DNA of 64,000 nt from Adhaeribacter pallidiroseus. Lineage in GTDB: Bacteria; Bacteroidota; Bacteroidia; Cytophagales; Hymenobacteraceae. A model generated the notes under the pieces. That model was not told the origin of the DNA, did not search any database, and saw nothing but the letters and a program-made list of their open reading frames with translations. A program made the translations under genes and the position numbers. The stretch spans positions 5,208,001 through 5,272,000 of the forward strand of contig NZ_QASA01000001.1 in NCBI RefSeq assembly GCF_003340495.1. The letters are read 5' to 3'. This document shows positions 8,468 to 46,570 of this stretch, one piece after another (position 1 is the stretch's first letter; each line of letters starts with the position of its first letter).

Positions 8468-8800
8468 TTTACGTATTGGTGGCTATACTTAGCCGATTTC
8501 TTAAAGTCGTGATCATACGGATTTAAGCCATAAAAGTCGGTTTATTTCCAGAAGTAAACTTCTTTATTACAAAATAAATCTTAAAGTAAAGCTAGTTTTT
8601 ATGAAGCGGTGGTTTCTCTACTGGCTTTATTTTTAAAAATTCTGCTGCAAAACTATCCGGGCTTCTTACAATTTAAAAAGCATAGCATAAAATTTTTTCG
8701 CAACAAAATGGTACCTCAGTAACCAGAAACGGTTTAATAATAAATAAAAAAAGCTGCTCCGGTAAAATGGAGCAGCTTTACAGTAGGAACCTGTAATATC
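8468..8800. other. Intergenic gap with the terminator of the next lipoprotein gene
   Basis: The 333-base gap should carry the promoter of the leftward HAD/NUDIX unit at its left end and holds the terminator hairpin of the lipoprotein gene at 8750-8779. Nothing else is recognised. Confidence 0.5.
8750..8779 (-). terminator. Rho-independent terminator of the 8801-9529 lipoprotein gene
   Basis: A perfect 11-bp stem (AAAGCTGCTCC / GGAGCAGCTTT) with an 8-base loop lies 21 bases after the stop codon. On the minus strand it is followed by TTTTTATTTATT. Confidence 0.85.
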
Positions 8801-9529
8801 TTATTTACTTTTTACGGCTTTTATTAAATCTTTGGCATCCTTGCCGGCTTCTAGGGCCAAGTACTCGGCTTGTAAACTTTTAATTTTTAATTCGTCGTTG
8901 GTAGAAATAGAAGTGGTAATTTCTTGTTTCCGGTTGTTCAGTTGCCGGTAAACGTAGTCGGTGTAATCCCAGTCGTTCTGGTCCCAGTTGTGTTTTTTAG
9001 CCCGGACCATGCCCATAAAAACCAGATAAGCTTCGCATACATTAGTAGCATTTATACTATTTAAATTCTGATATTCGCCCAGTAACTGTTTCTGGCGTTT
9101 TTTAATTTCACCGGCCTGCAAAGGCTTGCTGGTACGTTCTTTATTTTGTGCTTCCCACGCTTTGTATTTGGCTTTTGTTGCCAGGTACTCGGCTTTTGCA
9201 TCTTTCGATAAACTATCCAGGCCTTTCTCTAAATGAGCGGTTTTGCGCTTAAACTCAGCTTGTATCTCGGGTAGATTTTCGTTGGTAGCCGAATCTACTT
9301 TGTTGGCTTTCTGGTTTACCCAATCTTTAAATTTTTTTAATTCTTTCACGGCATTGGTATTTCCCCGGACTACCAGAATGGTATCCCGGGAATCTTGCTG
9401 GTCGACTCCGGCGCTGGCCGTAGAGGCTTCTTCTGCCTCGATGGTTCGCCGGGATTCACACGCGGACAGGGCGGTTCCGAGCGTAAAAAAAAGTAACAGG
9501 AAAGGCGCTGATTTATTCAATAATTTCAT
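8801..9529 (-). CDS. Lipoprotein with coiled-coil body, unknown function
   Basis: The reading frame extends to 9562, but the ATG at 9527-9529 is preferred because it begins a clear lipoprotein signal (MKLLNKSAPFLLLFF...ALSAC) with the lipidated Cys about 23 residues in. The remaining 220 residues are highly charged and helical (rich in Lys, Glu, Ala), with several heptad-like stretches. No known domain is recognised. It probably sits in a membrane leaflet facing the periplasm. It has its own terminator and is divergent from the M48 protease gene. Confidence 0.7.
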   Translation of the reverse strand: MKLLNKSAPFLLLFFTLGTALSACESRRTIEAEEASTASAGVDQQDSRDTILVVRGNTNAVKELKKFKDWVNQKANKVDSATNENLPEIQAEFKRKTAHLEKGLDSLSKDAKAEYLATKAKYKAWEAQNKERTSKPLQAGEIKKRQKQLLGEYQNLNSINATNVCEAYLVFMGMVRAKKHNWDQNDWDYTDYVYRQLNNRKQEITTSISTNDELKIKSLQAEYLALEAGKDAKDLIKAVKSK

Positions 9530-25695: not shown

Positions 25696-27501
25696 TCAGG
25701 TTGCTTTCCGGATGGTACGTTTTTGTTGGGCCGCCACAATAGCTTTTATTTCCCCCGTTGGTATGGCCTGAATTAAAGTGCGGGTATATTCGTGCTGTGG
25801 TTGCTCGTAAATTTGAACAGCAGTTCCACTTTCTACTATCTTCCCTTGGCTCATCACAAAAATGCGATCCGCCATAAAACGGGCAACCGCTAAATCGTGC
25901 GTTATAAACAGGTACGTAATTCCAAAATCTGCTTTTAATTTATTTAACAAATTAAGCACCTGCGCCTGCACCGATACATCTAATGCCGAGACGGATTCGT
26001 CACAGATGATACACTGGGGTTGTAAAGCCAAGGCCCGGGCAATAGATATGCGTTGCCGCTGACCGCCCGAAAATTCATGTGGATAACGAGAGTAATGCTC
26101 CGCGCTTAAGTTCACAGTTTGAAGCAGTTCTAATACGCGTTCTCTTCTTTCTGCCTCTGTATTATAAACATTATGTACGCGCATAGGTTCCATTATGGCT
26201 TCCCCAATTGTTTGCATCGGGTTAAGGGAAGCATACGGATCTTGAAATATCATTTGTAAGTTCTTTCGTTCGCGGCGCAACTCTTTACCGGATAAGCTGG
26301 CAATATTAACGTTGTTAAAGTTAATGCTGCCGCTGGTAGGTGCTACCATTTTTAAAATGGCCCGGCCTAAAGTAGTTTTCCCACAACCCGACTCTCCTAC
26401 CAAAGCAACCGTTTCGCCAGGGAAAACACTAAAACTTACGCCATCTACTGCTTTGATAAACTCCTGATTACGACAGAAGAAAGATTTACGAACCGGGAAA
26501 AATACTTGCAGGTTTTCCACAGTTAATAGCGGATTATTTTTTCTCTTTAACGGATTTGTGATGAGGAAAGGCTCCGGCTTTGCAGGATTTTTAAATTTAT
26601 TATCAACTAAGGAATTTGATCTCTCCCGAATAATGCCTTCAGCGGATACTTCCATGAAATCTGCCACCGTAGGTAAAACTTTTTTCCCGAAAGATAAAGC
26701 AGGTCGGCACGCTAGTAAGCCTTTGGTATAAGGATGTTGCGGGTTTTCGAATAATTGTAAAACCGGTCCTTGCTCTACAATTTTACCTTTATACATAACC
26801 AAAACGCGATCGGCAATTTCGGCCACTACTCCTAAATCATGCGTAATAAACAAAACAGAAGTTTGGTGTTGCACCTGTAAATCTTCTAACAATTTCAGGA
26901 TACGCGCTTGCACCGTTACATCCAGCGCGGTAGTTGGTTCGTCGGCAATAAGGATAGCCGGATTACAGGCCATCGCCATGGCAATCATAACCCGTTGCTT
27001 TTGACCGCCCGATATTTCGTGAGGATAAGCTTTTAAAATTTTATCAGGTCGAGGAAGTTTAACTTGTTCAAAAAGCGTTAACGTTTTCTCGTTGGCTTCT
27101 TTACGGGATAATCCTTTATGCAGTTGCAGCACTTCCCGCACCTGAAACCCGCAGGTATAAACCGGGTTAAGCGAGGTCATAGGTTCCTGAAAAATCATTG
27201 AGATTTCATTGCCCCGGATTTGCTGCATTTCTTTCTCAGGCAGCTTTAACAAATCTACTGTTCCAAACTGGCGAGAATTATAGATGATTTCGCCGCCGCT
27301 AATTTTACCGGGCGGGCTGTTGATAAGCCGTAAAACTGACAAAGAAGTAATCGATTTGCCCGATCCGGATTCACCCACAATAGCTATTGTTTCGGCAGGA
27401 TACAAATTAAACGAAATTTGATCTACCGCTTTTACAGTTCCGTGTTGTGAGTTAAACTCTGTTTGTAGACTGTTTATTTGTAATAATGGCGTTGTTAGCA
27501 T
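25696..27501 (-). CDS. Oligopeptide/dipeptide ABC transporter, two ATPase domains fused
   Basis: The 601-residue protein contains two complete ABC ATPase domains. Domain 1 has Walker A GESGSGKS, signature SGGQKQR and Walker B ILIADEP. Domain 2 has Walker A GESGCGKT, signature SGGQRQR and Walker B-like CIICDES. The C-terminal PxxEYTRTLI-type ends are typical of the peptide/nickel subfamily. This is the DppD-DppF-type fusion also seen in GsiA/YejF. The cognate permeases and binding protein are not adjacent. Domain 2 has Asp-Glu-Ser in place of the usual Asp-Glu-Pro, which is normal in this group. Confidence 0.94.
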   Translation of the reverse strand: MLTTPLLQINSLQTEFNSQHGTVKAVDQISFNLYPAETIAIVGESGSGKSITSLSVLRLINSPPGKISGGEIIYNSRQFGTVDLLKLPEKEMQQIRGNEISMIFQEPMTSLNPVYTCGFQVREVLQLHKGLSRKEANEKTLTLFEQVKLPRPDKILKAYPHEISGGQKQRVMIAMAMACNPAILIADEPTTALDVTVQARILKLLEDLQVQHQTSVLFITHDLGVVAEIADRVLVMYKGKIVEQGPVLQLFENPQHPYTKGLLACRPALSFGKKVLPTVADFMEVSAEGIIRERSNSLVDNKFKNPAKPEPFLITNPLKRKNNPLLTVENLQVFFPVRKSFFCRNQEFIKAVDGVSFSVFPGETVALVGESGCGKTTLGRAILKMVAPTSGSINFNNVNIASLSGKELRRERKNLQMIFQDPYASLNPMQTIGEAIMEPMRVHNVYNTEAERRERVLELLQTVNLSAEHYSRYPHEFSGGQRQRISIARALALQPQCIICDESVSALDVSVQAQVLNLLNKLKADFGITYLFITHDLAVARFMADRIFVMSQGKIVESGTAVQIYEQPQHEYTRTLIQAIPTGEIKAIVAAQQKRTIRKAT

Positions 27502-27713
27502 TAAAGCAAGTTCGGATAAATATTTACTTTAAGGATACCATATGATTATCTTTTCCGGAAACTTTATTATAGTTTTTTACTTATTTGGCAGCGATGTGGT
27601 TTACTAACACATGCACGTGAAACACGGCAATGGCTAAATTTTAAAAATTTGGACTAAACAAAAAGTAGTTAAGCTTCTTAAATTTAAAAAATGGTTGGTA
27701 TTACAAATTAGAA

Positions 27714-27750
27714 ACTAAAAAGCCACCCCGTTACAGGATGGCTTTTTAGT
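27714..27750 (-). terminator. Terminator of lspA
   Basis: ACTAAAAAGCCA and TGGCTTTTTAGT pair around a loop, with one mismatch further inside the stem. On the minus strand it lies 21 bases after the lspA stop. Confidence 0.75.
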
Positions 27751-27770
27751 TTTTTAAATTTATTTTATAC

Positions 27771-28433
27771 TCAAGCTTCCAATTTGGCGTTAGTAGTTTC
27801 TGGGTGGCTAGTTTCCGTATTTTCTTCCGTTGACGTGGGAACCGGATTTTTTTCGGGTAAGCTGGAGAAAAAGCGTTTTTGATTAAATAAAATAATTAAT
27901 ACGCCAATAAAAATAGCCGAATCAGCCACGTTAAAAATGGGCCACAACGACATAGCCGTACCGCCAATTACAGGAACCCAGTTCGGAATAATACCTTCCC
28001 AAATATCCAGGTAAAACATATCTACAACCTGGCCATGAAACCACGGGGTAGGCGAGCCATAAGGAGCATTGTCGAACCAGATACCATAAAATACACTGTC
28101 AATTAAATTGCCGATGGCACCGCCTAAGATTAAAGCTACGCACCAGATAAAGCCCGGATGCGCCCGGTTTTTCCAAAGGTAATACAGGCCGTAGCCAATA
28201 AATACCATAGCCACCATCCGGAACAAACTTAAGATGAGTTTGCCATAACTCGAACCCAGTTCTACCCCAAAGGCCATTCCAGGGTTAAGGGTATAATGTA
28301 ATTTAGCCCAGTCACCGATTACGTGAATTTCGCCAGGTAAGCCCATTTCCATATTATAATGGACTACAAATTTCACAACCTGGTCGATAATAATAACCAG
28401 CAGACTAAGCAGGTAATATTTTAAATATTTCAT
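27771..28433 (-). CDS. lspA: Lipoprotein signal peptidase II
   Basis: This 220-residue protein has four membrane helices and both catalytic Asp motifs of signal peptidase II: GNLID (in AIGNLIDSVFYG) and NVADSAI. It is longer than the usual 160-170 residues because of an insert before the second motif and a Thr/Glu-rich C-terminal tail, both common in Bacteroidota. It cleaves lipoprotein signal peptides in the inner membrane. ileS lies 123 bases upstream on the same strand, the classical ileS-lspA order. Confidence 0.95.
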   Translation of the reverse strand: MKYLKYYLLSLLVIIIDQVVKFVVHYNMEMGLPGEIHVIGDWAKLHYTLNPGMAFGVELGSSYGKLILSLFRMVAMVFIGYGLYYLWKNRAHPGFIWCVALILGGAIGNLIDSVFYGIWFDNAPYGSPTPWFHGQVVDMFYLDIWEGIIPNWVPVIGGTAMSLWPIFNVADSAIFIGVLIILFNQKRFFSSLPEKNPVPTSTEENTETSHPETTNAKLEA

Positions 28434-28556
28434 TTACAAAAATTTACTATAAACTATAAAGAATGAAGGCCGCTAAAATTTAAAGTATTAAACTTAAACA
28501 ATTCTAGTAACACATAATTCAATTCCTCCGGTTCTTAATTATCAAGATTTACCTGT

Positions 28557-31500
28557 TTAAATTACTTCCAACTTAGCGGTTAGGGTATATTCATCAATCT
28601 CTAATGCGGTACCATCCGCCATCATCTCGGTTAACTGCACGCCGGAAGCCTGAGTTTCTTCACTGATATACTTTTCAAATGCTTGAACTGCGGCATTTAC
28701 TTCGGCATTATTATTCAGTAACGAAATCCGGATCCGATCCTGTACGTCCAAGCCGCTATCTTTCCTTAAGTTCTGAATGCGATTTACTAAATCGCGGGCG
28801 ATACCTTCTTGTTTCAGAGTTTCGGTTAAGGTAATATCTAAAGCTACCGTTAATTTACCTTCCGAAGCTACTAACCAACCCGGAATATCCTCCGAAGAGA
28901 TTTCCACATCTTCCGGCGTAATGGTTACGGATTCAGAACCTAAAGCTATGGCAAATCCATTTTCTTTTTCCAGTTGATTAATTTCGTCCTGGTTCATCTT
29001 TTGAATAGCGGCTGCTACTTCTTTTAATCGTGGCCCGTAAACCTGGCCTAATTTTTTAAAATTTGGCTTTATTTTCTTCACCAAAATACCGGAAGTATCA
29101 TCAATGTATTCGATGGTTTTTACGTTTACTTCCGACAAGATTAAATCGGCTACTGCTTCTATTTGCTGCCTGGTTTTTTCGTTTAGTACCGGAATTAAGA
29201 TCCGGGAAAGCGGCTGCCGCACTTTTATGGTTTCCTTTTTCCGAAGGGAATGCACCAGCGACGATACCGTTTGCGCCAGTTGCATGCGTTCTTCTAATTC
29301 CGCATTGATAGCTGATTTCTTTACCTGTGGATAATCGGCTAAATGCACCGACTCAACCGGATTTTTACCCGAAACTTTGTTTAAATCTAAAAACAGTTGA
29401 TCCATGTAAAAAGGCGCTACCGGGGCAGCCAATAAAGCAACCGTTTCCAAACAGGTATAAAGCGTTTGATAAGCGGCAATTTTATCTTCGTTGTACTCGC
29501 CTTTCCAGAAACGCTTGCGGTTCAGGCGCACGTACCAATTACTTAAATCATCGCTTACAAAATCCTGAATGGCCCGGGTAGCTTTAGTTGGGTCATAATC
29601 GGCGTAAGCAGCATCTACCACGCTTACCAACGAATTTAATTTCGAAATAATCCATCGGTCACTCTCCGTCCGGTTTTCCAATGAAACTTCGGCTTCGGCG
29701 TAGGTAAAATTATCCAGGTTAGCGTACAGTGCGAAAAACGAATATGTATTCTGTAAAGTACCGAAGAACCGGCGCTGTACTTCTACAATGCCATCGGTAT
29801 TAAACTTCAGGTTATCCCAAGGCGGCGCATTCGAAATCATGTACCAGCGCGTTGCATCCGGTCCGTAGGTTTTAATGGTTTCGAACGGATCGACAGCATT
29901 GCCTAAGCGCTTGCTCATTTTATTGCCGTTTTTGTCGAGTACCAAACCGTTGGCCATTACATTTTTAAAAGCCACGCTGTCTTCCAACATTACCGCAATG
30001 GCGTGTAAGGTAAAAAACCAACCACGGGTCTGGTCCACTCCTTCCGCAATAAAATCAGCCGGGAAGTTCTGCTTAAAGGTTTCCTGGTTCTCGAAGGGGT
30101 AATGCCACTGCGCATACGGCATCGCGCCGGAATCAAACCAAACGTCGATTAAGTCCGGTTCGCGGCGCATTGGTTTGCCGGTTTTGCTTACGAGTATAAT
30201 GTTATCCACGTAAGGGCGGTGCAAATCCATATCTGAAACAATGGTTGGTTCCATTATACCGGCAATAACAGCTTTATCCACTTCGGTTTGTAATTCGGCA
30301 ACTGAGCCAATGCATGTTTCTTCATCCCCTTTTTCGGTGCGCCAGATAGGCAAAGGCGTACCCCAAAAACGGGAGCGCGACAAGTTCCAATCAACCAGGT
30401 TTTCTAACCAGTTACCAAACCGACCTGAACCGGTTGATTCGGGTTTCCAGTTGATGGTTTTATTTAACTCTACCAGTCGGTCTTTTACAGCGGTTGTTTT
30501 AATAAACCAGGCATCCAATGGATAATATAAAACTGGTTTATCGGTGCGCCAGGAGTGTGGATAAGTGTGCTCGTACTTTTCTACTTTAAAAGCTTTATTC
30601 TCTTCTTTTAAAATAATGGAAATAATAACATCCGTTGTTTTATAATCCGGGTTGCTCTCATCTTCATTGGTGTAATTCTTAACGTAGAAGTCGTCTGGGC
30701 CAAGTGCTTTATGGGTTTTGATTTTATACTTTTCAACACCTTCCAGCAGCTTTATTCCAACTTCGTTAATAAATTTTCCTCTCCGATCAACGGTGGGTAA
30801 CTCATTTCCGGTTTCATCTTTTATGGTTAAAGCCGGAATACCATGTTGTTTGGCTACCCGAAAGTCATCCGCTCCAAAAGTTGGTGATGTATGCACTACG
30901 CCGGTTCCGTCGGAGGTGGTAACAAAATCACCCGCAATAACCTGAAAGGCTTTATCAGCATCGTAAAATGGTTGGAGGTAAGGCATTAATTGTTCGTACC
31001 GGATACCTACTAATTGCTTACCCGTAAACTCCTGCACAATCTCAAACGGAATAGCTTTATCGCCGGTCTTGTAATCCGAAATTTTTAAATTTTTATTTTT
31101 TTCGGAGAAATACTTACCTACCAGTTCTTTGGCAATTACTATACTCACCGGTTTATGGGTATAAGCGTTAAAGGTATTTACCTGCACATAAGTTATCTTA
31201 TCGCCAACAGCCAGAGCGGTATTAGAAGGTAAGGTCCAGGGGGTGGTTGTCCAGGCCAGAATAAAGACATCGCCGTTAGGTTCCGAGAAAAGGAATTCTG
31301 ATTTTGAATCTTTAATTACTTTGAACTGGGCTACGATAGACGTATCTTTTACTTCTTTATAGCAGCCGGGCTGGTTGAGTTCGTGCGAGCTTAGTCCGGT
31401 CCCATCGGATGGCGAGTACGGCTGAATGGTATAACCTTTATATAAAAGGCCTTTTTCGTACAGCTTTTTCAAGAGAGCCCAGATAGATTCGATATAATCG

Positions 31501-31958
31501 TTTTCGAAGGTGATGTACGGATTGTCCAGGTCTACCCAGTAACCCATTTTCTGGGTTAAATCGTCCCATTGACTTTTAAAGCGCATTACTGTTTCGCGGC
31601 ACCGGGCATTGTAATCTTCAATGGAGATTTTTTTACCAATGTCTTCTTTAGTAATGCCTAATTCTTTTTCTACCTGAAGCTCGATAGGCAAACCGTGCGT
31701 ATCCCAGCCTCCTTTGCGGTTTACCTGAAATCCTTTTAAAGTTTTGTACCGGCAGAAGATATCTTTTACCGCCCGGGCCATTACGTGGTGAATACCCGGC
31801 GTACCGTTCGCCGATGGTGGACCTTCGTAGAAAACAAAAGGCGTTTTACCTGCCCGGGTCTCTACCGATTTTTGAAATATTTTATTTTGATTCCACTGGG
31901 TTAGCACGTCTTCGGCTAATTTGGCATAATTCAGGTTCTTGTACTCGCTATACTTCAC
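28557..31958 (-). CDS. ileS: Isoleucine--tRNA ligase, long (IleS2-type) form
   Basis: The 1133-residue enzyme has the class I signature GPPSANGTPGIHHVM in place of HIGH, the CP1 editing motif WTTTPWTLPSNTALAVG, and KMSKR (in KNGNKMSKRLGN). The length (about 1130 against 930 in E. coli) and KMSKR fit the eukaryote-like clade, which as a group is less sensitive to mupirocin. It charges tRNA-Ile in the cytosol. Regulation by a T-box is not seen in the upstream gap. A T-run/AAA/T-run word lies 11 bases before the start codon. Confidence 0.97.
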   Translation of the reverse strand: MKYSEYKNLNYAKLAEDVLTQWNQNKIFQKSVETRAGKTPFVFYEGPPSANGTPGIHHVMARAVKDIFCRYKTLKGFQVNRKGGWDTHGLPIELQVEKELGITKEDIGKKISIEDYNARCRETVMRFKSQWDDLTQKMGYWVDLDNPYITFENDYIESIWALLKKLYEKGLLYKGYTIQPYSPSDGTGLSSHELNQPGCYKEVKDTSIVAQFKVIKDSKSEFLFSEPNGDVFILAWTTTPWTLPSNTALAVGDKITYVQVNTFNAYTHKPVSIVIAKELVGKYFSEKNKNLKISDYKTGDKAIPFEIVQEFTGKQLVGIRYEQLMPYLQPFYDADKAFQVIAGDFVTTSDGTGVVHTSPTFGADDFRVAKQHGIPALTIKDETGNELPTVDRRGKFINEVGIKLLEGVEKYKIKTHKALGPDDFYVKNYTNEDESNPDYKTTDVIISIILKEENKAFKVEKYEHTYPHSWRTDKPVLYYPLDAWFIKTTAVKDRLVELNKTINWKPESTGSGRFGNWLENLVDWNLSRSRFWGTPLPIWRTEKGDEETCIGSVAELQTEVDKAVIAGIMEPTIVSDMDLHRPYVDNIILVSKTGKPMRREPDLIDVWFDSGAMPYAQWHYPFENQETFKQNFPADFIAEGVDQTRGWFFTLHAIAVMLEDSVAFKNVMANGLVLDKNGNKMSKRLGNAVDPFETIKTYGPDATRWYMISNAPPWDNLKFNTDGIVEVQRRFFGTLQNTYSFFALYANLDNFTYAEAEVSLENRTESDRWIISKLNSLVSVVDAAYADYDPTKATRAIQDFVSDDLSNWYVRLNRKRFWKGEYNEDKIAAYQTLYTCLETVALLAAPVAPFYMDQLFLDLNKVSGKNPVESVHLADYPQVKKSAINAELEERMQLAQTVSSLVHSLRKKETIKVRQPLSRILIPVLNEKTRQQIEAVADLILSEVNVKTIEYIDDTSGILVKKIKPNFKKLGQVYGPRLKEVAAAIQKMNQDEINQLEKENGFAIALGSESVTITPEDVEISSEDIPGWLVASEGKLTVALDITLTETLKQEGIARDLVNRIQNLRKDSGLDVQDRIRISLLNNNAEVNAAVQAFEKYISEETQASGVQLTEMMADGTALEIDEYTLTAKLEVI

Positions 31959-32549
31959 TGTTATTTTTTAAATTTTTATCTATGGCAATTATATCGTAAG
32001 CTTTAGAAAACGAGCTATTTTGTTTACAAGTATTCTAAAAATGCTTTAGAAGCAATTTAAGTTCGTGCCCCGTAAGAACTAAGTTTTATATGCTTAAAGA
32101 TGCTTGTGGCTTCTTGTTCTTGAAATTAGCCGGACAAAAATAAGAAAGCCAATCAACAAAACCGAAGAAGTACAGAATATACTGATAATTACTATTATAA
32201 CCTGAATACACGTTTTCTCCTGTTTGATCTTACTTTAACACGAGTTCGCGGTTAATACGGTCTTATTTTTTTAAATTTTACCCGTGAGTAACTATTTAAT
32301 TCAGCAAGGCTAATTTTTTATTATGATCTCATTTATAATTTTTTGCTAAAAAAATTTTTAAATAATAACCCCTGTTTTTCTTAACACTATTTTAAGTTCA
32401 ATCATTAAGTTTTACACACCTTCCGGAGCTAATAATTGCCTTTAGCTAAGAAAATATGGATAATACTTTTGGAACATCTGTGCATTTTGCTTCTTTTCTG
32501 CATCCAGAAACTGTTAATTTTGCTTCCACTTTATAATCTATTTTAAACT
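31959..32549. other. Intergenic gap between divergent ileS and lipoprotein genes
   Basis: This 591-base AT-rich gap contains a -7 box (32515-32522) for the rightward lipoprotein gene and presumably the ileS promoter. T-run/A-run words lie near 31968, 32268 and 32348. I see no T-box, tRNA or open frame of note. Confidence 0.5.
32515..32522 (+). promoter_or_regulatory. Probable -7 element for the 32550 lipoprotein gene
   Basis: TAATTTTG matches TAnnTTTG exactly, 27 bases before the ATG. A TTTTG near 32485-32489 is a possible -33 element but the spacing (25) is longer than usual. Confidence 0.4.
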
Positions 32550-33200
32550 ATGAAATTAAAATCTTTTTCAAACCTATTGACTGTGGTACTCTTGGTGGTA
32601 CTTGGATTATCTTTTAGCAGTTGCTCTACTTCCCAATCTTTCTATTTTGCCAAAGGTACGGGTGCTTTTAAGGATCCTTATAAAACTAATTCTCCGACAG
32701 CTAATACACTAACGGCTAATGCTACCTCTGATCAATCAGCCACTGACTTAACAACCTTATTGCAAGCTCAGGTAACTGCTGTTACTGCAGAAAACAGTAC
32801 CCAGCATGTTACTCAGAAAATTATAATTCAAAAACCTTCGCGTAAAGAGCTAAAAAATTTAAAAATACGCTTAGAAGCGGTGCTGGATACCACCAAAAAG
32901 CGGGAACGCGTTACCATTAAAACCAATGAAAAGAAAGTAGATGAGCTACGCAACGAAGTAGAAAGTTTGAAGAACTCTGTACGTACAGAAAAACAAAGCG
33001 ATAAAGTAGTTGTTTCTTTTGACAAGCCCCAAACCAGTTTATCGAAGGAAGCAAAAATTTTAATTATTGTGGGTGCTGCCTTGTTGTTAATTGGTTTACT
33101 TTCTCTCCCTATTATCGGACCGGTGCTTGGGGTAGTTTTGGGTATTGCGGTTGTAGCGGCAGCGCTGGCTTTAGTTTTAGGAATTGTGGAAATTGGTTAA
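32550..33200 (+). CDS. Lipoprotein with coiled coil and C-terminal membrane helices
   Basis: The 216-residue protein starts with a lipoprotein signal (VVLGLSFSSC, lipidated C25). A Thr/Asn-rich segment follows (45-85), then a charged coiled coil (95-150), then two adjacent hydrophobic stretches (about 167-188 and 190-213) separated by a short turn. Carrying both a lipid anchor and C-terminal hydrophobic helices is unusual. I do not recognise the family. It is monocistronic with a strong shared terminator. Confidence 0.75.
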   Translation: MKLKSFSNLLTVVLLVVLGLSFSSCSTSQSFYFAKGTGAFKDPYKTNSPTANTLTANATSDQSATDLTTLLQAQVTAVTAENSTQHVTQKIIIQKPSRKELKNLKIRLEAVLDTTKKRERVTIKTNEKKVDELRNEVESLKNSVRTEKQSDKVVVSFDKPQTSLSKEAKILIIVGAALLLIGLLSLPIIGPVLGVVLGIAVVAAALALVLGIVEIG

Positions 33201-33220
33201 TGTATCTACCATTAACTAGT

Positions 33221-33258
33221 ATACAAAAGGTCTGATTAAGTAATCAGACCTTTTGTAT
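33221..33258. terminator. 18-bp palindromic bidirectional terminator
   Basis: ATACAAAAGGTCTGATTA pairs with the exact complement across two bases. It lies 20 bases after each of the two convergent stop codons (lipoprotein gene on +, serine hydrolase gene on -). Confidence 0.85.
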
Positions 33259-33277
33259 TTAAGATAAAATTTAAAAA

Positions 33278-35092
33278 TTACCGAGTTAAAGCCGAAAGCT
33301 TTTGCTGTAGTTCTTTGTCCTGGGGATTATCTTTTAAAGCTTGTTGATAAGCGGCGGTGGCTTCCTTAATTTTTCCTTGCAACTGATACAAGTCGCCCCA
33401 CCGAGCTAAAACAATACTGGATTGCGCAAATCGTTCATCGGCTAACTGCAATATACCTTCGGCTTCTTTTAACTTAGCCGGCTTTTGGTGCATAAACTCG
33501 TAAGCCATATACGTAAGTTGGTTCTCATTCAACTGTAATTTTCGATAGCCCGCCATGGCTTCTGGAATACGGCCTTGTTGCATTAATTCATTCGGCAAAA
33601 GATCATCGTTTGCTAAACGAGGCATTACTTTATCTATACCCAAGATTTCCACACCTGTTATTTGATTTTGATTGTTACGCCGAAACACACCTTTAAACGG
33701 AAAATCTGAAAAGGCAATGGTATCGGGAGCAATGGGGAAACAATAAATAGGATTACCTTGATTGATAGTTTCTACTAAGTAATTTTTTTCCTGGCGAAAT
33801 TTTACTACTTCATCCGGTGCTCGTTGATAGCGGCCTGCATATTGTTGTAATTGGTTAGTGGCTAAAGCAATCGGATTAATTTGGTCGGGTAAAAAAGCAG
33901 TCCAGTTATAAACTTTAGCCACTGCCCGTCGGATTTCTTTTCCTAATTCATCGGCAGCTCCATCTTTATTCATCATAATAACTACGCCATTACCTTCGGT
34001 TAAACTGCCAATGGCGTAGGCCAGAAAACCCGCATTAACCCCGGTATGTTCAAAATAAATACCCGCCGGATTTTGGTTATCGTGGCGTTGCAGCAGAAAA
34101 GCCCCTAGGCCCATATCTTCGTGGTAAAAGCCTTTAGTTACCGCAACTTGTGGTTTAAGCATTTCCGTGATTATTTCACGGGACAAAAGCTTACTTTGTC
34201 CTTGATAACTTTTTTGTAACTGAATAATAAGCTTTGCTAAATCGGAAGGAGTGGAATATAAACCAGCAGCGGCTTGCTGTGGATAAACGTATGGCATTCC
34301 TTTGTACCAACTATTTTCGGAGTACGCCCAGGAAGCTAATTTTTGAAATTTAACGGGTAAAGGTTGAGCAAAAGTGGTGTGTGGCATGCCCCATTTTTTA
34401 AAAATATTTTGATAGGTGTAATCCGTAAAACTCTTTTTGGTCATATCCATTATAGCTTGTTGCGCAATTAAGTAGGCACCACCCGAATAACGAAACTCTT
34501 TGCCCGGCTGGGAGTTTACCACAACCGGCCGGCTCTCTGCCGGAGGTAGCCCATTTAATATTTCAATAATGGTAGGAAACGGCGCTTCATTGGGAGTAGA
34601 TCCATAATAAGAAGATTGGCTAACACCTGCCTGATGACTTAACAGATAACGTAGAGTTATAGGTGTATTTTGGGTATACTGGTTATCTGGCAATTTCCAG
34701 GAAGTCAAATAATTATTAATTGGGGAATCTAAAGTAAGTTGCTTTTTATCCACCAACTGAAGAGCGGCTACTGCGGTTACCAACTTAGATATAGAACCCG
34801 CCGAAAACACGGTAGTGGTAGTAACCGGCATTTTGGTAGTAGTATCGGCTAAGCCGTAGCTTTTTGCCCAATCAATTTTTAAATTGCGGATAACTGCTAT
34901 ACTTAGGCCTGGTACCCGATAGTGTTTCATCCGTTCTGCCAGGTTCCATCCTGGAAAATCTTTTATTGGTACATAAGGCATCAAGCTATTTTCTACTTGC
35001 TGGATGCGTTCTGTTTCGGGCAGTAGTTGCTGGGCATAACTAAAGCTTATCTGCAGGCTAAAAGAAATTAAGAACAAAAGGCGAGTTTTCAT
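33278..35092 (-). CDS. Secreted serine hydrolase (class C beta-lactamase fold) with C-terminal TPR-like region
   Basis: This 604-residue protein has a signal peptide (residues 1-21), then a beta-lactamase/D-alanyl-D-alanine-peptidase fold with the SxxK motif S100-I-S-K103 (FSAGSISKLV), a Tyr-containing second motif (EFRYSGGAY) and the HTG-type third motif (FEHTGVNAGF). After about residue 490 the sequence is helical with two TPR-like units (LNENQLTYMAYEF, ARWGDLYQLQGKIKEATAAYQQALKDNPQ). The substrate is unknown. It is directly downstream of a membrane AraC regulator that probably controls it. Confidence 0.9.
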   Translation of the reverse strand: MKTRLLFLISFSLQISFSYAQQLLPETERIQQVENSLMPYVPIKDFPGWNLAERMKHYRVPGLSIAVIRNLKIDWAKSYGLADTTTKMPVTTTTVFSAGSISKLVTAVAALQLVDKKQLTLDSPINNYLTSWKLPDNQYTQNTPITLRYLLSHQAGVSQSSYYGSTPNEAPFPTIIEILNGLPPAESRPVVVNSQPGKEFRYSGGAYLIAQQAIMDMTKKSFTDYTYQNIFKKWGMPHTTFAQPLPVKFQKLASWAYSENSWYKGMPYVYPQQAAAGLYSTPSDLAKLIIQLQKSYQGQSKLLSREIITEMLKPQVAVTKGFYHEDMGLGAFLLQRHDNQNPAGIYFEHTGVNAGFLAYAIGSLTEGNGVVIMMNKDGAADELGKEIRRAVAKVYNWTAFLPDQINPIALATNQLQQYAGRYQRAPDEVVKFRQEKNYLVETINQGNPIYCFPIAPDTIAFSDFPFKGVFRRNNQNQITGVEILGIDKVMPRLANDDLLPNELMQQGRIPEAMAGYRKLQLNENQLTYMAYEFMHQKPAKLKEAEGILQLADERFAQSSIVLARWGDLYQLQGKIKEATAAYQQALKDNPQDKELQQKLSALTR

Positions 35093-35115
35093 TGGGAGCT
35101 TTTTTTAAAATAAAA

Positions 35116-36195
35116 TTAGCTCTCATTCGGTAGTGCTTCGCCCCGATTTATAAGTTGGGACTCTTTTTTAAAGAATTTAGGAGCCATTCCGGTTCGTTCC
35201 TTAAAAACCCGGTTGAATGTTGTTTTGGAAGAGAACCCAGCATCTAAGGCAAGACCCAGTAAAGAAAATCTTTCATCTTCCGCCTTCAGCATACGTTCCT
35301 TTACTTCCGCAATTCTAAAGTCATTTACAAAATCGGCAAATGTTTTTTGTAAACCGCTGTTGATAATTCTGGATAATTCATTTGTTGGCAAACCAATCTG
35401 TTGCGCCAAAATAGGGAGGGATAAATCCGGATTTTTGTAAAGTTTTGCTTCGTGCATCACTTTGATTACCTGATCTAATTTATCTTTATCCACACTAGAG
35501 TTCGCTGCCTTTTTGCGGATTAGAATGGTAGGTTTTCGCAGTAAGCCGTACAGTGCTAAGCTGTACATAAATAGGGGTAGCACCAAAGCAGTCAAATAAA
35601 ACTTTGGAGCAGTAGGTTCCAGATATAAATGATTAAAAAGCGGATCAATGGCAGCTACTATATAAAACAGTATCAATCCGCACAAAAAATAATAGTGCCG
35701 GCTATCACGTTCTTTAGAAATGCCCCCGAAAGTAATACTGCTTATGCCATAACACAACACCGATAAACAAGCCCCGTAATGTTCCAGGTAGCGGGTATAA
35801 GGTTTATGCACCGAAATCCAGAAATCAGCTTTTACGCTAAGCGGTTGAAAAACTAAAAGTAAATAAAAAATGCCTTGCACCATTACCGGCACAAAATGCC
35901 AATATGATATACGGTTAATTTTTTGAACCCTGGATTTTACGTAGAAATAAATAAGCGGACCAAAACTCCAGGAGAAAAAGAAAGGGCTAAAGTATAACCA
36001 GCGGTTGCGGTAATAAATACCCGAACGGCTCAGAAAGTAATCTGTTATTTGCAGGGTTAATCCTAAAAGTAGCCAACCAAGCCAATAATGACTTGGTTGC
36101 TGCTTTTTAGTTGTTAATAAATAAATGCCCGTAGTAAAACCTTGTACAATACAGAATACCTGAAACAGTACTACCCAATCAAAATAGACTTGCAT
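35116..36195 (-). CDS. AraC-type regulator with seven-helix membrane N-terminus
   Basis: This 359-residue protein has about seven hydrophobic helices in residues 1-215 and a C-terminal AraC-type double helix-turn-helix (LPILAQQIGLPTNELSRII, then LGLALDAGFSSKTTFNRVFK and TGMAPKFFK). Such membrane-bound AraC proteins are common in Bacteroidota and are thought to sense a signal at the membrane. It is 23 bases upstream of the serine hydrolase gene in the same direction, so the two probably form an operon with autoregulation. Confidence 0.9.
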   Translation of the reverse strand: MQVYFDWVVLFQVFCIVQGFTTGIYLLTTKKQQPSHYWLGWLLLGLTLQITDYFLSRSGIYYRNRWLYFSPFFFSWSFGPLIYFYVKSRVQKINRISYWHFVPVMVQGIFYLLLVFQPLSVKADFWISVHKPYTRYLEHYGACLSVLCYGISSITFGGISKERDSRHYYFLCGLILFYIVAAIDPLFNHLYLEPTAPKFYLTALVLPLFMYSLALYGLLRKPTILIRKKAANSSVDKDKLDQVIKVMHEAKLYKNPDLSLPILAQQIGLPTNELSRIINSGLQKTFADFVNDFRIAEVKERMLKAEDERFSLLGLALDAGFSSKTTFNRVFKERTGMAPKFFKKESQLINRGEALPNES

Positions 36196-40155: not shown

Positions 40156-40650
40156 TTATAAGCCGTATTTAGATTTATGTTCCGCCATTAAATATTGGTA
40201 CACAGCATTGTTTTTAGCTTCCATCCATTTTTTTTTAAAAATAGCTGCCGATTCTGCTTTTACCTGGTCTTCCTCTATGGGTAGCAAATATTTTTTACGA
40301 GCTATTTTCTCTAATTCTTTAGTAGGTTCTTCCTGAGGATTTTGTTTATACTTCTGGCCAGATTTATGGTTGGCATATCTTCGGGAGCGCGTATATCCCA
40401 TTTGCAGGAACTTACGGGCCATATCTGCTCCTACAAAGTCTTTTGCTTGCAAATACTCCAGAAATAAAGAATATATCTTCTTAGAAGATTCACTGGCTAT
40501 ATCTGGCGTTTTAAACCGCCAGTAGGGCAATATTTCTGATTTATAAGGTTCTACCAATAAAACGCCTTGTTCTCCTTTACCTACCCGGTATAACTCCGGC
40601 CTTTTTCTAAAATCTGTATTTTTAAAATCTAAAGTGTAATCGAAAGACAT
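40156..40650 (-). CDS. DUF4385 family protein
   Basis: This 164-residue protein matches DUF4385 throughout: FDYTLDFKNTDFRKRPELYRVGKGEQGVL, VEPYKSEILPYWRFKTPDIA, and FVGADMARKFLQMGYTRSRRYANHKSG. It is soluble and basic. Family members of this length are widespread and uncharacterised. It borders the AT-rich gap with DnaA-box-like sites. Confidence 0.88.
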   Translation of the reverse strand: MSFDYTLDFKNTDFRKRPELYRVGKGEQGVLLVEPYKSEILPYWRFKTPDIASESSKKIYSLFLEYLQAKDFVGADMARKFLQMGYTRSRRYANHKSGQKYKQNPQEEPTKELEKIARKKYLLPIEEDQVKAESAAIFKKKWMEAKNNAVYQYLMAEHKSKYGL

Positions 40651-41175
40651 ACCTTAATTCTTTTTACTCTTTATACGAACGTAGATTTAAAAGGCTAAAC
40701 AAGATAGTTTTCCATCTTTCCACATTTATAATAAGTTTATTATTAAAAAGAAATTTTAAATTAAATCTTTAAACCTTCATCATTAAGCCTGTTTATAAGT
40801 GGATAAACTTACCTATTATTCTTTTTACACCAGCCACTCGGACTAATCCACGAGTTATACGCTTTTACAAAACAATAAAGTATGCCGAAAGGAATACAAT
40901 TAGACTTATTTAGTTAAATTCTCCACATATACACATAAATAATTGTGCATAGCTTATTAGAAACTAACAAGTGAATAAATTTAAAATGAATAAGACTTTA
41001 AGCTTTATTTTCCCACAACTAAGTAATCTGTACTTCTATTTTTAAATATGCTCGCATAACTAATGAAAGTTATGAGTTTTAAGTCTAGACTTTTCCACAG
41101 GTTATTAGTTACTTTTTAAGTACTACTAAAAAAGAAATAACCAGAATTAATCTGGTTTTTTTAGGCAATGATGAT
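40651..41175. other. AT-rich gap with a cluster of DnaA-box-like 9-mers (candidate oriC)
   Basis: The 525-base gap holds five 9-mers one base from TTATNCACA: 40798-40806 (reverse), 40919-40927, 40927-40935, 40944-40952 (reverse) and 41091-41099. Weaker ones lie at 40716-40724, 40845-40853 and 41009-41017, and TTATCCACC lies just outside at 39558-39566. Fewer than one would be expected by chance. Stretches such as 40935-41010 are nearly all A/T. A perfect parS lies 4.6 kb away beside mnmG, a classical origin neighbour. The gene orientation does not change here, which counts against. There is also a terminator hairpin at 41139-41157. No gene is present. Confidence 0.4.
41139..41157. terminator. 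Small terminator hairpin after the Ig-like lipoprotein gene
   Basis: AACCAGA and TCTGGTT pair around ATTAA; on + it is followed by TTTTTT and on - by ATTTCTTTTTT, so it may work in both directions. The Ig-like gene stop lies 19 bases away. Confidence 0.6.
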
Positions 41176-42762
41176 CTAAAACTCAAAGGGAACATCTTGT
41201 ACCCAGTTAATTCTTACTTCTATAGGTTTAGGCTGATTGATCACTTTTTCGGGAATAGTCTTTAAATCCTGATTGCCGGCACGCCACTCTCCATTTTGAT
41301 CTTCATCTATTTTTACCCGTATACGATAAGAACTGGGTTCTAATTCTGCTAAGACTAATGATTTAGGTGTATCGTATGTTTTAAGTATTTTATAGTCTTT
41401 ATCTAGTAGTTCTAGAAAATACTTTTTGTAATTCGTATTAATTTTTAAGTCTATAGTGCCTCCTTGATCTTTATCTGCTACTAATAAACTTACTTTTTGT
41501 TTTTTAAATCTATCACCTGAAACAGGTATCAGTACTGTGGTATCAATTAGGATGTCTATTGTTTTCTTGGCTTTAGAATTTAAGGAAAAATTTAAAATAT
41601 TTTTACTCTTATTCAACTTTACGTCTTCTGGATAGTTCAATACTCGATTAGTAACGGAATCTTCTACCAATGTAACTACCGGACCTTTATTTAAACGCAA
41701 GGGTGCATCAAACTTTAATTGCAAAGCTTCATTTCCTTTAACTTGGTTAGTTTTAGGAATTACTTGAAAGTTTAGGTCTCGACGGGCTTTTTTTCCGGAA
41801 AATACAATATCAACTGTATCAACCTTGGCGTTTTCTGCCGAATCCAGAGCCGTTATAAAGTATTTCCCTTTAATCTGATTAGTATTAGGAAATAAACGAA
41901 CTGTTTTTGTGTTTTCACTAATTAGGCTATATAAATCGGTAGAATCACCCCCTGCAATTTTTACTGCGGTAATACCTTCATTATAGTTTAAATGATATTC
42001 ATCTAAATACGGCTGCTTAGATGTTATATAAGGGGCTTTAGTATCAATCCGAACTAATTGTAAATCCTGTGGAGGAGTTTGCGCAGTTATTTCAATAGGA
42101 TTGGCTAAGTACCCGATTTTTTCATTTTCATCATTATAGATGTTATCGTTATTCTTGTCGTGATGCGCATATAAATAATAAGTACCATACTTGATATTCT
42201 GTAACAAATAAGTCCCATCCTCTCCCGTTTTGGTTAGATAATAAGGTTTATTTTTACGAATAGTAGCAGTATCATTTACGGCGTATAATACAACATTAAT
42301 GTCTTTTGCCGGTGTGCTGGTAAGCAAATCTGTAACTACACCTTGTACTTGGCCTGAATCCAGGAATGCTCCGGTACTAAATGTTAAAGTCAGATTTTTA
42401 GGTTTATTGCCTTCGGTAATATCTTCTATACCTTCCCGGAAATTCAAAAAGTAAGTAGTATTGGGTTCAAAATTTTTTTCAAAACTTAATTTTACCTCTT
42501 CCCGATCTACTTCTGAAATAATTTGATTTTCGGTACTTGGAGATATAATTAACTGCCGATTAAAGTCTTTTAAACGTATTTCTTCGTTAAAGCGCAAAGT
42601 AATTGATTTACCAGATACTTGTAATGACTTGTTGGTTGGCGAACTACTTACTAATTCAGGGCTTTTTATATCTTTTTCGCCACCTTCGGGTGGACTAATG
42701 CTGGCACAGCCACAAACAATAAACACAAAAAAGTAGTTGATTAATTTTCTAAAATCAGACAT
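41176..42762 (-). CDS. Ig-like domain (Big_5) lipoprotein
   Basis: The frame extends to 42789, but the start at 42762 is preferred because it begins a lipoprotein signal (MSDFRKLINYFFVFIVCGC, with SIS-PPEGG after the Cys). Residues 30-130 form the bacterial Ig-like 5 domain (SPELVSSSPTNKS ... SITLRFNEEIRLKDFN), followed by an SdrD-B-like repeat region (GTYYLYAHHDKNNDNIYND) and further beta-strand domains. These proteins are anchored on the outer membrane or periplasmic side. It lies downstream of the mnmG methyltransferase unit with a 155-base gap. Confidence 0.85.
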   Translation of the reverse strand: MSDFRKLINYFFVFIVCGCASISPPEGGEKDIKSPELVSSSPTNKSLQVSGKSITLRFNEEIRLKDFNRQLIISPSTENQIISEVDREEVKLSFEKNFEPNTTYFLNFREGIEDITEGNKPKNLTLTFSTGAFLDSGQVQGVVTDLLTSTPAKDINVVLYAVNDTATIRKNKPYYLTKTGEDGTYLLQNIKYGTYYLYAHHDKNNDNIYNDENEKIGYLANPIEITAQTPPQDLQLVRIDTKAPYITSKQPYLDEYHLNYNEGITAVKIAGGDSTDLYSLISENTKTVRLFPNTNQIKGKYFITALDSAENAKVDTVDIVFSGKKARRDLNFQVIPKTNQVKGNEALQLKFDAPLRLNKGPVVTLVEDSVTNRVLNYPEDVKLNKSKNILNFSLNSKAKKTIDILIDTTVLIPVSGDRFKKQKVSLLVADKDQGGTIDLKINTNYKKYFLELLDKDYKILKTYDTPKSLVLAELEPSSYRIRVKIDEDQNGEWRAGNQDLKTIPEKVINQPKPIEVRINWVQDVPFEF

Positions 42763-42917
42763 TCTTATTATTAGACTGCTTTGACGCAAATTTTTGGTGG
42801 CGGGATGATTCTTAGCAGATAAATTTTAAAAAAAGTGTTAATAACTAGCAAAAAATTTAAAAATTATAAATCATAAGGTGCTCATATTTTAAACATTACG
42901 AATTTTAAACATACATA

Positions 42918-43811: not shown

Positions 43812-45677
43812 TTACTTTCCTAAATACACCATTAATATGGATATATCCGCCGGCGATACTCCACTAATGCGAGAGGCCTGGCCAATTGTTTCGGGATTAA
43901 TTTTTAATAGCTTTTCGCGCGCTTCTTTAGAAAGGGCTGACATATTTTTGTAATCAAGTCTTTCTTTAATAATGTAATTTTCCAGCTCCTCTATTCTGCT
44001 AGCCATTTGATGTTCTTTATCAATGTAGCTGGCATACTTTACCGCGATAGACGCTTGCTCTATACTATCAGGTAAGTATTTACTTAAATAAGTTTTTGCG
44101 ACAGGTACGGCCTCCATAATATGGTTAATATCTACATTAGGCCGTTTAATTAAGTTACCTGCTTTGGCCTTCTCGGTTATAGGTGCAGAATTTAAACGTT
44201 GTAGGATTGCGTTTATTTCAGCTGGTTCTACCGATTTATTGTTTAGATAATCTATAATTTCCTGCGTTTCGGATATTTTCCGGTTTACTTGATCTAAGCG
44301 TTCCTGACTTGCCAAACCAAGATCGTAACCTTTTTTTGTTAAGCGAATGTCCGCATTATCCTGGCGTAATAAAATACGATGCTCAGCTCGGGAAGTAAAC
44401 ATACGGTAGGGCTCTTCAGTACCTTTATTTACTAAATCATCAATAAGTACGCCTATATAAGCTTCGGAACGTTTTAAAATAAAAGAGTCTTTTTCGTGAA
44501 TTTTGTTGTGGGCATTAATCCCGGCCATTAAACCTTGGCAAGCAGCTTCTTCGTAACCAGTAGTACCGTTTATCTGACCGGCAAAGTATAAGTTTTCAAC
44601 CAACTTCGTTTCTAAAGTAAGATTTAGCTGCGTGGGTGGGAAAAAGTCATATTCAATAGCGTATCCAGGTCGAAACATTTTAGCATTTTCAAATCCGGCA
44701 ATACTGCGTAAGGCTTTAAATTGAACATCTTCGGGCAAGGAGCTAGAAAACCCATTAACGTATATTTCTACTGTACTCCTACCTTCTGGTTCCACAAAAA
44801 TCTGATGGCGATCTTTATCTGCGAAGCGGTTAATTTTATCTTCAATGGAAGGGCAATAGCGCGGACCTAAACCTTGGATGCGCCCTTGGAACATAGGCGA
44901 TTTTTCAAACCCTGTTTTTAAAATTTCGTGCGTTTCCGAACTAGTATAAGTTATATAGCAACTGCGTTGCTCTTGTAATGATTTAGTTTTGGTGTAAGAA
45001 AATTTAGAAGGGTTTTCATCCCCTTTTTGCTCTTCCATTCGAGAGTAATCTAAAGATCGGCCATCTACCCGCGGCGGTGTACCCGTTTTCATGCGGCCAG
45101 CTTCAAAACCTATACTTATTAGTTGTTCGGTAATACCCGTAGCTGCTCTTTCAGCAGCTCGTCCACCGCCAAATTGTTTTTCACCAATATGGATAATACC
45201 ATTTAAAAAAGTGCCATTGGTTAATACGACTGCTTCTGACTTAAACTCAATACCTAATGCTGTTTTTATACCAACTGCTTTACCTTTTTCTACTAAAAGG
45301 CTTGTGACCATTTCTTGCCAAAAATCAATGTTTGCAGTTTGTTCTAAATTCATGCGCCATTCTTCAGCAAAGCGCATGCGGTCGCTTTGCGCCCTAGGGC
45401 TCCACATTGCCGGTCCTTTTGACATATTCAGCATTCTAAACTGAATCATTGTTTTATCGGTAATAATGCCACTCTGTCCGCCCAAAGCATCTATTTCGCG
45501 TACGATTTGTCCTTTGGCTACTCCCCCCATAGCAGGGTTGCATGACATTTGCGCAATGGTATTCATGTTCATAGTTACCAGTAGAACCTTAGAACCCATG
45601 CGGGCAGCAGCAGCAGCAGCTTCACAGCCAGCGTGTCCGGCACCCACTACAATTACGTCGTATTTTGCGGTGATCAT
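43812..45677 (-). CDS. mnmG: tRNA uridine-5-carboxymethylaminomethyl modification enzyme MnmG (GidA)
   Basis: The 621-residue protein is a full-length MnmG: FAD-binding [17 protein letters not shown] at residues 12-28, the conserved [32 protein letters not shown], and the C-terminal helical region that binds MnmE. With MnmE it modifies U34 of several tRNAs using FAD. A perfect parS site lies 17 bases upstream of the start codon, between it and ybeY. In many bacteria gidA borders the replication origin. The methyltransferase gene follows without a gap. Confidence 0.97.
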
Positions 45678-45693
45678 AAGATATGTTTAAATG

Positions 45694-45709
45694 TGTTTCA
45701 CGTGAAACA
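45694..45709. other. Perfect parS (ParB-binding) site
   Basis: TGTTTCACGTGAAACA matches the parS consensus (TGTTNCACGTGAAACA) at all 16 bases. It lies in the 46-base gap between ybeY and mnmG. ParB loads here and spreads to drive chromosome segregation; such sites cluster near oriC. Confidence 0.92.
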
Positions 45710-45723
45710 ATAGAGATGGTAGA

Positions 45724-46170
45724 TTAAATTCCGTCTGTAGTAAAATCACGCAAAGATAACCAGTAATCTTCTTTTTGCCGCATTTCCGTTTTGTTTGATT
45801 CTGTTTTATCATCATACCCTATTAAATGCAAAACACCGTGTATGATTACACGGTGCAGTTCCTCTAAAAGTAGTACGTTAAAATTAATAGCGTTTTCTTT
45901 TACCCGGTCTATACTAATAAATATATCTCCTTCTATTGTTTGTTCCTCATCCGAATTATCAAAGGTAATAATATCGGTAAGGGTATCGTGATTCAGGTAA
46001 GACTTATTTATATCCAATAAGTAATCGTCGTAACAGAATATAAAAGTTAAATTTTCTAAATTAAACTCGTAAAAATTAATAACTCGTGCTATCCAATCTT
46101 TAAGCTTATTTTCGTCCGGAATGGTAAAAGGAATATCTTCGGCTATAAACTCTATTGGTAAATCAGGCAT
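45724..46170 (-). CDS. ybeY: Endoribonuclease YbeY
   Basis: The 148-residue protein has the YbeY zinc motif H111-G-V-L-H115-L-I-G-Y-D-D121. The third ligand, usually His, is Asp here; Bacteroidota YbeY proteins commonly deviate at this point. The LNHDTLTDIITFD segment is the other family signature. It takes part in 16S rRNA 3'-end maturation and ribosome quality control. It overlaps the preceding anti-sigma-like gene by 8 bases, so translation is coupled. Confidence 0.93.
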   Translation of the reverse strand: MPDLPIEFIAEDIPFTIPDENKLKDWIARVINFYEFNLENLTFIFCYDDYLLDINKSYLNHDTLTDIITFDNSDEEQTIEGDIFISIDRVKENAINFNVLLLEELHRVIIHGVLHLIGYDDKTESNKTEMRQKEDYWLSLRDFTTDGI

Positions 46171-46570
46171 TGTTAATGTAAAACGTTAATTGCACATTAC
46201 GACCTTCGTTGGTGAATTTAACTTCATCGCATAAATGCTTCATCAGAAAAATTCCTCTACCACCCGGGTTTTCTAAATTTTCAGGAGCGGTAGGGTCTGT
46301 TAAGGCATCGGCATTAAAGCCGTTTCCTTCGTCTTGCACTTCAAACCGGAGCAAATCTGGTTCTACGAAGAGCGATAAGTATACGTTTTTATCTTTATCA
46401 AACTTATTACCGTGCCTGATGGCATTGTTAACAGATTCTGTTACGGCCACCATAATATTGCCGTATATGTCATCTTCGATGTGAAATTTTTCTTTCGAGT
46501 TGTCGATAAAACTTTCTACTACCCGAATGTTTTCAATGAGAGAAGGAATCTGAATTTTAATTTGATTCAT
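46163..46570 (-). CDS. HATPase-family anti-sigma-like ATP-binding protein (RsbW-like)
   Basis: This 135-residue protein is a single HATPase_c domain: the N-box AVTESVNNAIRHGN, VQDEGNGFN as G1-type motif and GRGIFLMKHL as G2-type. This short type corresponds to serine kinases of the RsbW/SpoIIAB class that bind sigma factors or anti-sigma antagonists. No partner switch protein (STAS domain) is adjacent, so its partner is elsewhere. It lies between the DUF4175 gene (33-base gap) and ybeY (overlap). Confidence 0.88.
   Translation of the reverse strand: MNQIKIQIPSLIENIRVVESFIDNSKEKFHIEDDIYGNIMVAVTESVNNAIRHGNKFDKDKNVYLSLFVEPDLLRFEVQDEGNGFNADALTDPTAPENLENPGGRGIFLMKHLCDEVKFTNEGRNVQLTFYINNA

Follow-up and report, generated by a model that had tools for sequence, protein, structure and literature searches.

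Many species have several parS sites, and the clustering of these sites at the origin is common without being universal. The described systems closest to the locus considered here are Soj/Spo0J-parS of Bacillus subtilis and ParAB-parS of Caulobacter, with which it shares the type of 16-bp site, the order of the ParB domains, the adjacency of parA and parB, and the position of the site beside the origin. It differs from both in that there is one perfect site, that parAB lies 2.7 Mb away from it (0.43 of the contig), and that dnaA is also far away. In Escherichia coli, oriC lies beside mnmG (gidA) and, to our knowledge, there is no ParABS system; the origin is beside mnmG here as well, but it is parS that touches mnmG, the oriC candidate being 4.5 kb off. 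A canonical ParABS system with one parS is likewise found in Xanthomonas campestris, a member of a different phylum, for which a position beside mnmG is not mentioned in the accessible part of the report (PMC7333895). According to the same partial text, a single parS frequently suffices, and the zone within which additional ones are tolerated is limited to the surroundings of the native site or of the origin. In Bacteroides caecimuris and other gut bacteria, parS likewise marks the skew-defined origin; these bacteria, in contrast, carry clusters of parS at ori, and mnmG is not mentioned in the portion of the paper that is available (PMC10197239). A literature search covering mostly open-access papers retrieved no account of parS beside mnmG in Bacteroidota.

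The site described below lies in a 64,000-nt stretch of the Adhaeribacter pallidiroseus genome (hereafter the window; C1:5208001-5272000, in a contig of 6.26 Mb). From its sequence and surroundings, it would be, with a probability of about 95%, a parS that serves as centromere of the chromosome within a ParABS segregation system.

The parS site and its ParA and ParB partners

The site, TGTTTCACGTGAAACA, occupies positions 45694-45709 of the window (no strand assigned); it is a perfect 16-bp palindrome that matches the parS consensus at 16/16 positions, and the sole perfect copy in the genome. It is located between two genes of the minus strand: ybeY (45724-46170), encoding an rRNA maturation RNase (TIGR00043 and PF02130), which ends 14 nt before the site, and mnmG (gidA; 43812-45677), encoding a tRNA modification enzyme (TIGR00136 with 850 bits, and PF01134), whose start codon is 16 nt past it. 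A gene for an HATPase_c_2 (RsbW-like) protein (46163-46570, minus strand) adjoins ybeY, and also borders the ybeY-parS-mnmG block in the family loci that were compared. The preliminary description had reported a perfect palindromic 16-mer at exactly this place, directly before mnmG, which was found as claimed; the intervening gap, given there as 17 nt, is one of 16 nt.

When up to three mismatches are allowed, the window contains three matches to parS, one perfect and two with three mismatches each, versus a mean of 0.27 in shuffled sequences, and a count of three was reached in 0/100 shuffles. With so low an expectation even for imperfect matches, the earlier statement that a chance match is very unlikely holds for the perfect one observed. 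In the whole genome (6.43 Mb in 3 contigs), the scan returned 8 matches, i.e., the perfect site, one site with one mismatch located 322 kb from it, and six with two mismatches, as compared to 2 matches for the reversed control pattern.

The parB gene that was expected from the presence of the site is found in the genome. The single ParB_N match, at C1:2543282, belongs to a canonical ParB of 306 aa in which ParB_N, HTH_ParB and ParB_C (PF02195, PF17762 and PF23552) all score above cut-off; this is the CTPase, HTH and dimerisation domain set of ParB, and the GERR motif is present. A ParA gene directly precedes parB (L048 7304-8083, then 8156-9076). Among solved structures, the best relatives are listed under the names ParB family protein and Spo0J, and Noc ranks just below them; with NCBIfam, the top score is that of the Noc model (235.7 bits, below its 315-bit cut-off), and the general ParB domain model passes. 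By hand count along the alignment to solved relatives, the protein displays the ParB-type residues R173 and G201 and not the Noc-type Q and R, together with Y and K at positions 179 and 184. The residue numbers for the preference for parS versus NBS (R173 and G201) are those of PMC7383237, in the accessible text of which positions 179 and 184 are said to vary among ParBs. R173 and G201 thus speak for parS, and against a Noc site, as the target of this ParB.

In the genome of the window, parB is close to the point at which the skew changes sign, marking the terminus. The separation between parS and parB, an approximate measure since some assemblies are not closed, amounts to 0.28-0.43 of the contig in 12 of 13 large contigs and to 0.12 in the last one, from G032. 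The mnmG gene of G032 (C1:3830019-3831870) is in three pieces with stops, reflecting either a broken gene or assembly errors.

In the mechanism proposed for this system, ParB, encoded far off near the terminus, would load on this one parS, close as a CTP clamp and spread over the neighbouring DNA; ParA and probably SMC would next act on the newly replicated origin region, moving and folding it. The site would keep its place since it is needed beside the origin, which probably corresponds to the gap at 40651-41175.

The probable replication origin region

The cumulative GC skew, computed over 464 contiguous kb, reaches its minimum at C1:5261909, 8.2 kb from parS. A few copies of the site clustered at this minimum had been anticipated: the perfect site does lie close to it, but there is one perfect copy and no cluster. 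Of twenty 20-kb samples, 11 cover the arc that runs from 5.5 Mb across the zero point up to 2.3 Mb, and the skew is positive in 10 of them (the exception being at 6.2 Mb); among the 9 samples spread over 2.5-5.26 Mb, it is negative in 8 (the exception being at 4.225 Mb). The dnaA gene, at C1:403, is 1.0 Mb from parS. As far as the accessible parts of these papers go, the oriC of Bacteroidetes is commonly far from dnaA (PMC4755523), and ori has been placed by parS clusters, with dnaA not always there (PMC10197239); a parS near the skew minimum with dnaA 1.0 Mb off agrees with both. Among relatives, the skew minimum within 200 kb is 8.5 kb from parS in G021 and 11.8 kb in G009; it is 41 kb from parS in the Rufibacter genome G017, and in the Hymenobacter-like genome G020 the skew is flat, with no usable minimum near mnmG or parS.

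The gap at 40651-41175 (no strand assigned), located 4.5 kb from parS and beyond mnmG, is the probable chromosomal oriC; its GC content is 26% and it contains 3 DnaA boxes with one mismatch each. The corresponding gap of G020, between the orthologues of 40156-40650 and 41176-42789, has 13 DnaA boxes in about 650 bp (counted, as in the window, with at most one mismatch). Across the counterpart gaps of the 20 scorable genomes out of 25, that of the window included, the density of DnaA boxes is 5.99 per kb versus 0.42 per kb outside, and boxes are denser and GC is lower inside the gap in 20/20. Of the 20 gaps, 13 share a TTATCCACT box whose flanks are alike, and some Rufibacter gaps have only one to three boxes. 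The five unscored genomes are four Pontibacter (g3), with gaps of about 3 kb in G009, G022 and G026 and the next gene not found in G014, and one f19 genome. The densest window of DnaA boxes falls outside the counterpart region in two of these Pontibacter genomes, G014 and G022, and five boxes directly follow the 41176 orthologue in G054 (f19). Besides the low box number of some Rufibacter gaps, two points count against the candidate: about 13 kb separate it from the skew minimum, which is on the opposite side of parS, and an oriC at this position would set the mnmG operon head-on to the fork.

Five perfect TTATCCACA DnaA boxes are also present within 9.4 kb of the window (26078-35486), versus 3 over the remainder of the contiguous 464-kb stretch. 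As a candidate oriC, this group was rejected, all five boxes being inside ORFs and spread over 9.4 kb. Perfect DnaA boxes are also found 15-39 kb out, on the mnmG side, in G021 and G017. Such a near-origin stretch is possibly a DnaA-titrating region.

DnaA boxes are found close to parS itself in some lineages. In Rufibacter (L029-L034, L213, L214 and L216), TTATCAACA and TAATCCACA DnaA-like boxes flank the site at constant spacing, and in two f19 genomes (L100 and L101) DnaA-like boxes are enclosed by a pair of parS sites. Flanking boxes are clear in Rufibacter (g6, 6/6 genomes) and in one Adhaeribacter (G005). Taken together (16 kb), the 200-bp stretches preceding mnmG in 80 named loci contain 13 DnaA boxes, i.e., 0.81 per kb versus 0.43 per kb elsewhere in the loci, and 13 boxes versus a mean of 4.2 and a maximum of 8 in shuffled sequences. 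At least 6 of these 13 boxes come from three Rufibacter species, and DnaA boxes touching parS as a general rule were not upheld.

parS and mnmG in relatives

In the Hymenobacteraceae, parS is present in the ybeY-mnmG gap of 20 of 37 genomes (19 perfect sites and one with one mismatch), where it ends 12-21 nt before the mnmG start codon. The 17 genomes without a site at mnmG are three A. rhizoryzae-like ones (G001, G002 and G007) and 14 Hymenobacter-like ones, i.e., genera g4 and g5, so labelled from the lack of a site at mnmG that is also seen in named Hymenobacter loci. In 14/14 Hymenobacter-like genomes, a site is found 24-34 kb downstream of mnmG (distances obtained by hand arithmetic), and it is the sole match with at most one mismatch in 13 of them, G010 having one further one-mismatch match elsewhere. 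The relocated parS of G020 (L025 1480-1535) is at the centre of a 56-bp inverted repeat (-42 kcal/mol, z -12.5), and those of six others among L022-L028 are in palindromes of 20-38 bp. Two A. rhizoryzae-like genomes (L137 and L138) have lost parS at mnmG, and their mnmG contigs (G001 C13 and G002 C51) show several matches with one or two mismatches.

The same question can be asked of loci that were fetched by means of the MnmG protein, independently of the site. A perfect 16-mer is present upstream of mnmG in 16 of 17 such Hymenobacteraceae loci outside Hymenobacter and Solirubrum; the exception is the A. rhizoryzae locus, where no match within three mismatches was found. In the 16 loci with a perfect site, the 20-base flanks average 0.71 and 0.72 in major-base frequency. 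A separate column-conservation run was anchored on the perfect 16-mer, so that its parS columns are invariant by construction, and was repeated on the mnmG-chosen loci. Extending to the 80 named mnmG-fetched loci, a site with at most one mismatch lies within 250 bp upstream of mnmG in 57, while the 23 without it consist of 17 Hymenobacter or Solirubrum loci, one of A. rhizoryzae and five others. With one mismatch allowed, these 57 loci have 105 upstream sites, of which 79 are perfect and 26 have one mismatch; all 26 differ from the consensus at position 1 or 16 only, the inner 14 bp being invariant. In Algoriphagus (L253, L257, L259, L271, L274, L277, L278 and others), two parS sites are found 34-47 bp apart upstream of mnmG.

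The arrangement is different elsewhere in the phylum. In each of the 30 phylum loci that were selected on mnmG score, a site with no more than two mismatches (no more than one in 29 of them) is found within about 220 bp of one or the other end of mnmG, and the sites are downstream only in 25 loci and on both sides of the gene in 5; the phylum-wide position is drawn from these 30 loci, 24 of which belong to one family (f41). Just past the downstream end of mnmG, most loci of f41 (L107-L136) carry a pair of parS sites separated by 148-157 bp. In a larger sample of the phylum, 274 of 296 genomes have one or more matches that differ from parS at no more than one position, the positions being known for a minority of them, among the matches listed.

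The presence of the site also follows that of ParB. Among 59 genomes, including that of the window, a ParB_N match was found in 56 and a strong canonical ParB in 55; G007 (78% complete, no ParB match) was dropped from this tally. A site with at most one mismatch is present in 51 of the 55 genomes with a canonical ParB, the other four having only weaker sites. Three near-complete genomes were scored as having no canonical ParB, namely G037, G056 and G049, the last with one ParB_N match above cut-off (51.5 bits, in a 646-aa frame). None of the three has a site with up to three mismatches upstream of mnmG, and their genome-wide matches show no excess over the control (2 vs 7, 8 vs 9 and 1 vs 3). 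The association between ParB and the site has a Fisher p of 0.001, a value obtained from hand tallies, uncorrected for relatedness, G037 and G056 being of the same family. The preliminary proposal of a real parS near the origin is thus supported by the one canonical ParB with its adjacent ParA, by the skew minimum 8.2 kb off, by the conserved position and by the absence of the site together with that of ParB; neither a random scatter of the motif nor the absence of parB, both of which would have spoken against it, was found.

Centromere function versus control of mnmG

Upstream of the site, TATCTTTG (45751-45758, minus strand), inside the 3' end of ybeY, fits TAnnTTTG, which the accessible part of PMC9723704 gives as the sigma-A -7 box of flavobacteria. 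The box is about 41 nt from parS, and an RNA made from TATCTTTG would carry parS in the mnmG leader, at about +38 to +53. Of the 80 named loci, 26 have a TAnnTTTG string in the 130 bp preceding mnmG, as compared to 130 of 3928 background windows, and part of this excess is due to shared ancestry and ybeY coding. In the 18 loci where both elements were seen, the box is without exception the one lying towards ybeY; the values of 26/80 and 18 are approximate, the scripted start codon being wrong for some loci (parS was missed in L219, L221 and L229). In some other families (e.g., L086-L089), it is instead the interval separating parS from mnmG that contains a TAnnTTTG string, and parS is thus not always transcribed with mnmG.

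These features bear on whether the palindrome could serve mnmG. A pure operator of mnmG, bound by ParB or another CACGTG-binding regulator and resembling parS only secondarily, would account for the short and regular distance to the start codon in the 20 Hymenobacteraceae genomes and for the promoter-like box found upstream of mnmG in about a third of the named loci. Such an operator would hardly be expected downstream of the gene, where 25 of the 30 mnmG-chosen phylum loci have their only sites (the other 5 having them on both sides), or 24-34 kb away as in all 14 Hymenobacter-like genomes, nor would it be expected to be missing where canonical ParB is missing though mnmG is present; it was rejected on the positions and is very unlikely. 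Somewhat more room is left for a dual role, i.e., a centromere whose occupancy by ParB would also tune mnmG from its leader, as the distances of 16 nt to the start codon and about 41 nt to the box, and the constant order of box and site, could suggest. This possibility is nonetheless a doubtful one, as the position of the site is not kept in all lineages and as parS, in the families with TAnnTTTG between it and mnmG, is not always in the leader.

The palindrome is also probably transcribed, and a leader hairpin or attenuator acting on mnmG at the RNA level could be imagined. However, the leader folds no better than shuffled sequences (z -1.15) and in its predicted fold the two halves of the palindrome are not paired with each other, on which grounds the hairpin was rejected; furthermore, the central CACGTG, which would partly form the loop, is invariant in the 105 upstream sites. 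An RNA element is hence highly improbable. As to a mere chance match, no point in its favour was found, and both the shuffles and the perfect sites of 16/17 mnmG-chosen family loci led to its rejection; its likelihood is negligible.

On the strength of these sequence comparisons, the main job of the site would be that of a centromere rather than the control of mnmG, because sites elsewhere are downstream of mnmG, on both sides of it or 24-34 kb away. For the same reason, the link between parS and mnmG transcription suggested in the preliminary description would not be the best explanation of the site, other lineages having theirs downstream of mnmG or tens of kb from it. The relocation of parS in Hymenobacter-like genomes fits the limited zone in which sites are tolerated (PMC7333895, in the part available). 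The points against the parS reading are that there is one good site only, that dnaA and parAB are far off, unlike in the usual layout, that the top NCBIfam score of this ParB, although under the cut-off, is with the Noc model, that the skew minimum is 41 kb from the site in G017 and no minimum is seen near mnmG or parS in G020, that the oriC candidate is displaced from the skew minimum and would put the mnmG operon head-on to replication, and that 17 of the 37 family genomes lack a site at mnmG.

The site is thus a canonical chromosomal parS close to the origin, part of a minimal ParABS system with one site, and not a new kind of element. Its noteworthy part is the oriC-mnmG-parS neighbourhood, which is kept while dnaA and parAB are far away. 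A tentative and rather speculative extension would be that Bacteroidota keep an ancient oriC-mnmG-parS block where parS is linked specifically to mnmG, dnaA and parAB having moved far away (parAB towards the terminus), and that this tie comes either from a coupling between ParB loading and mnmG transcription or from the founding position of the centromere in the phylum.

In Bacteroidota, parS beside mnmG offers a simple sequence marker of the replication origin where dnaA misleads. The combination of one parS and a parAB close to the terminus also makes for a clean minimal system. In addition, the phylum provides a natural series of parS positions, with sites upstream, downstream or on both sides of mnmG, moved by 24-34 kb, or missing with ParB, and this series allows testing what fixes a bacterial centromere in place.
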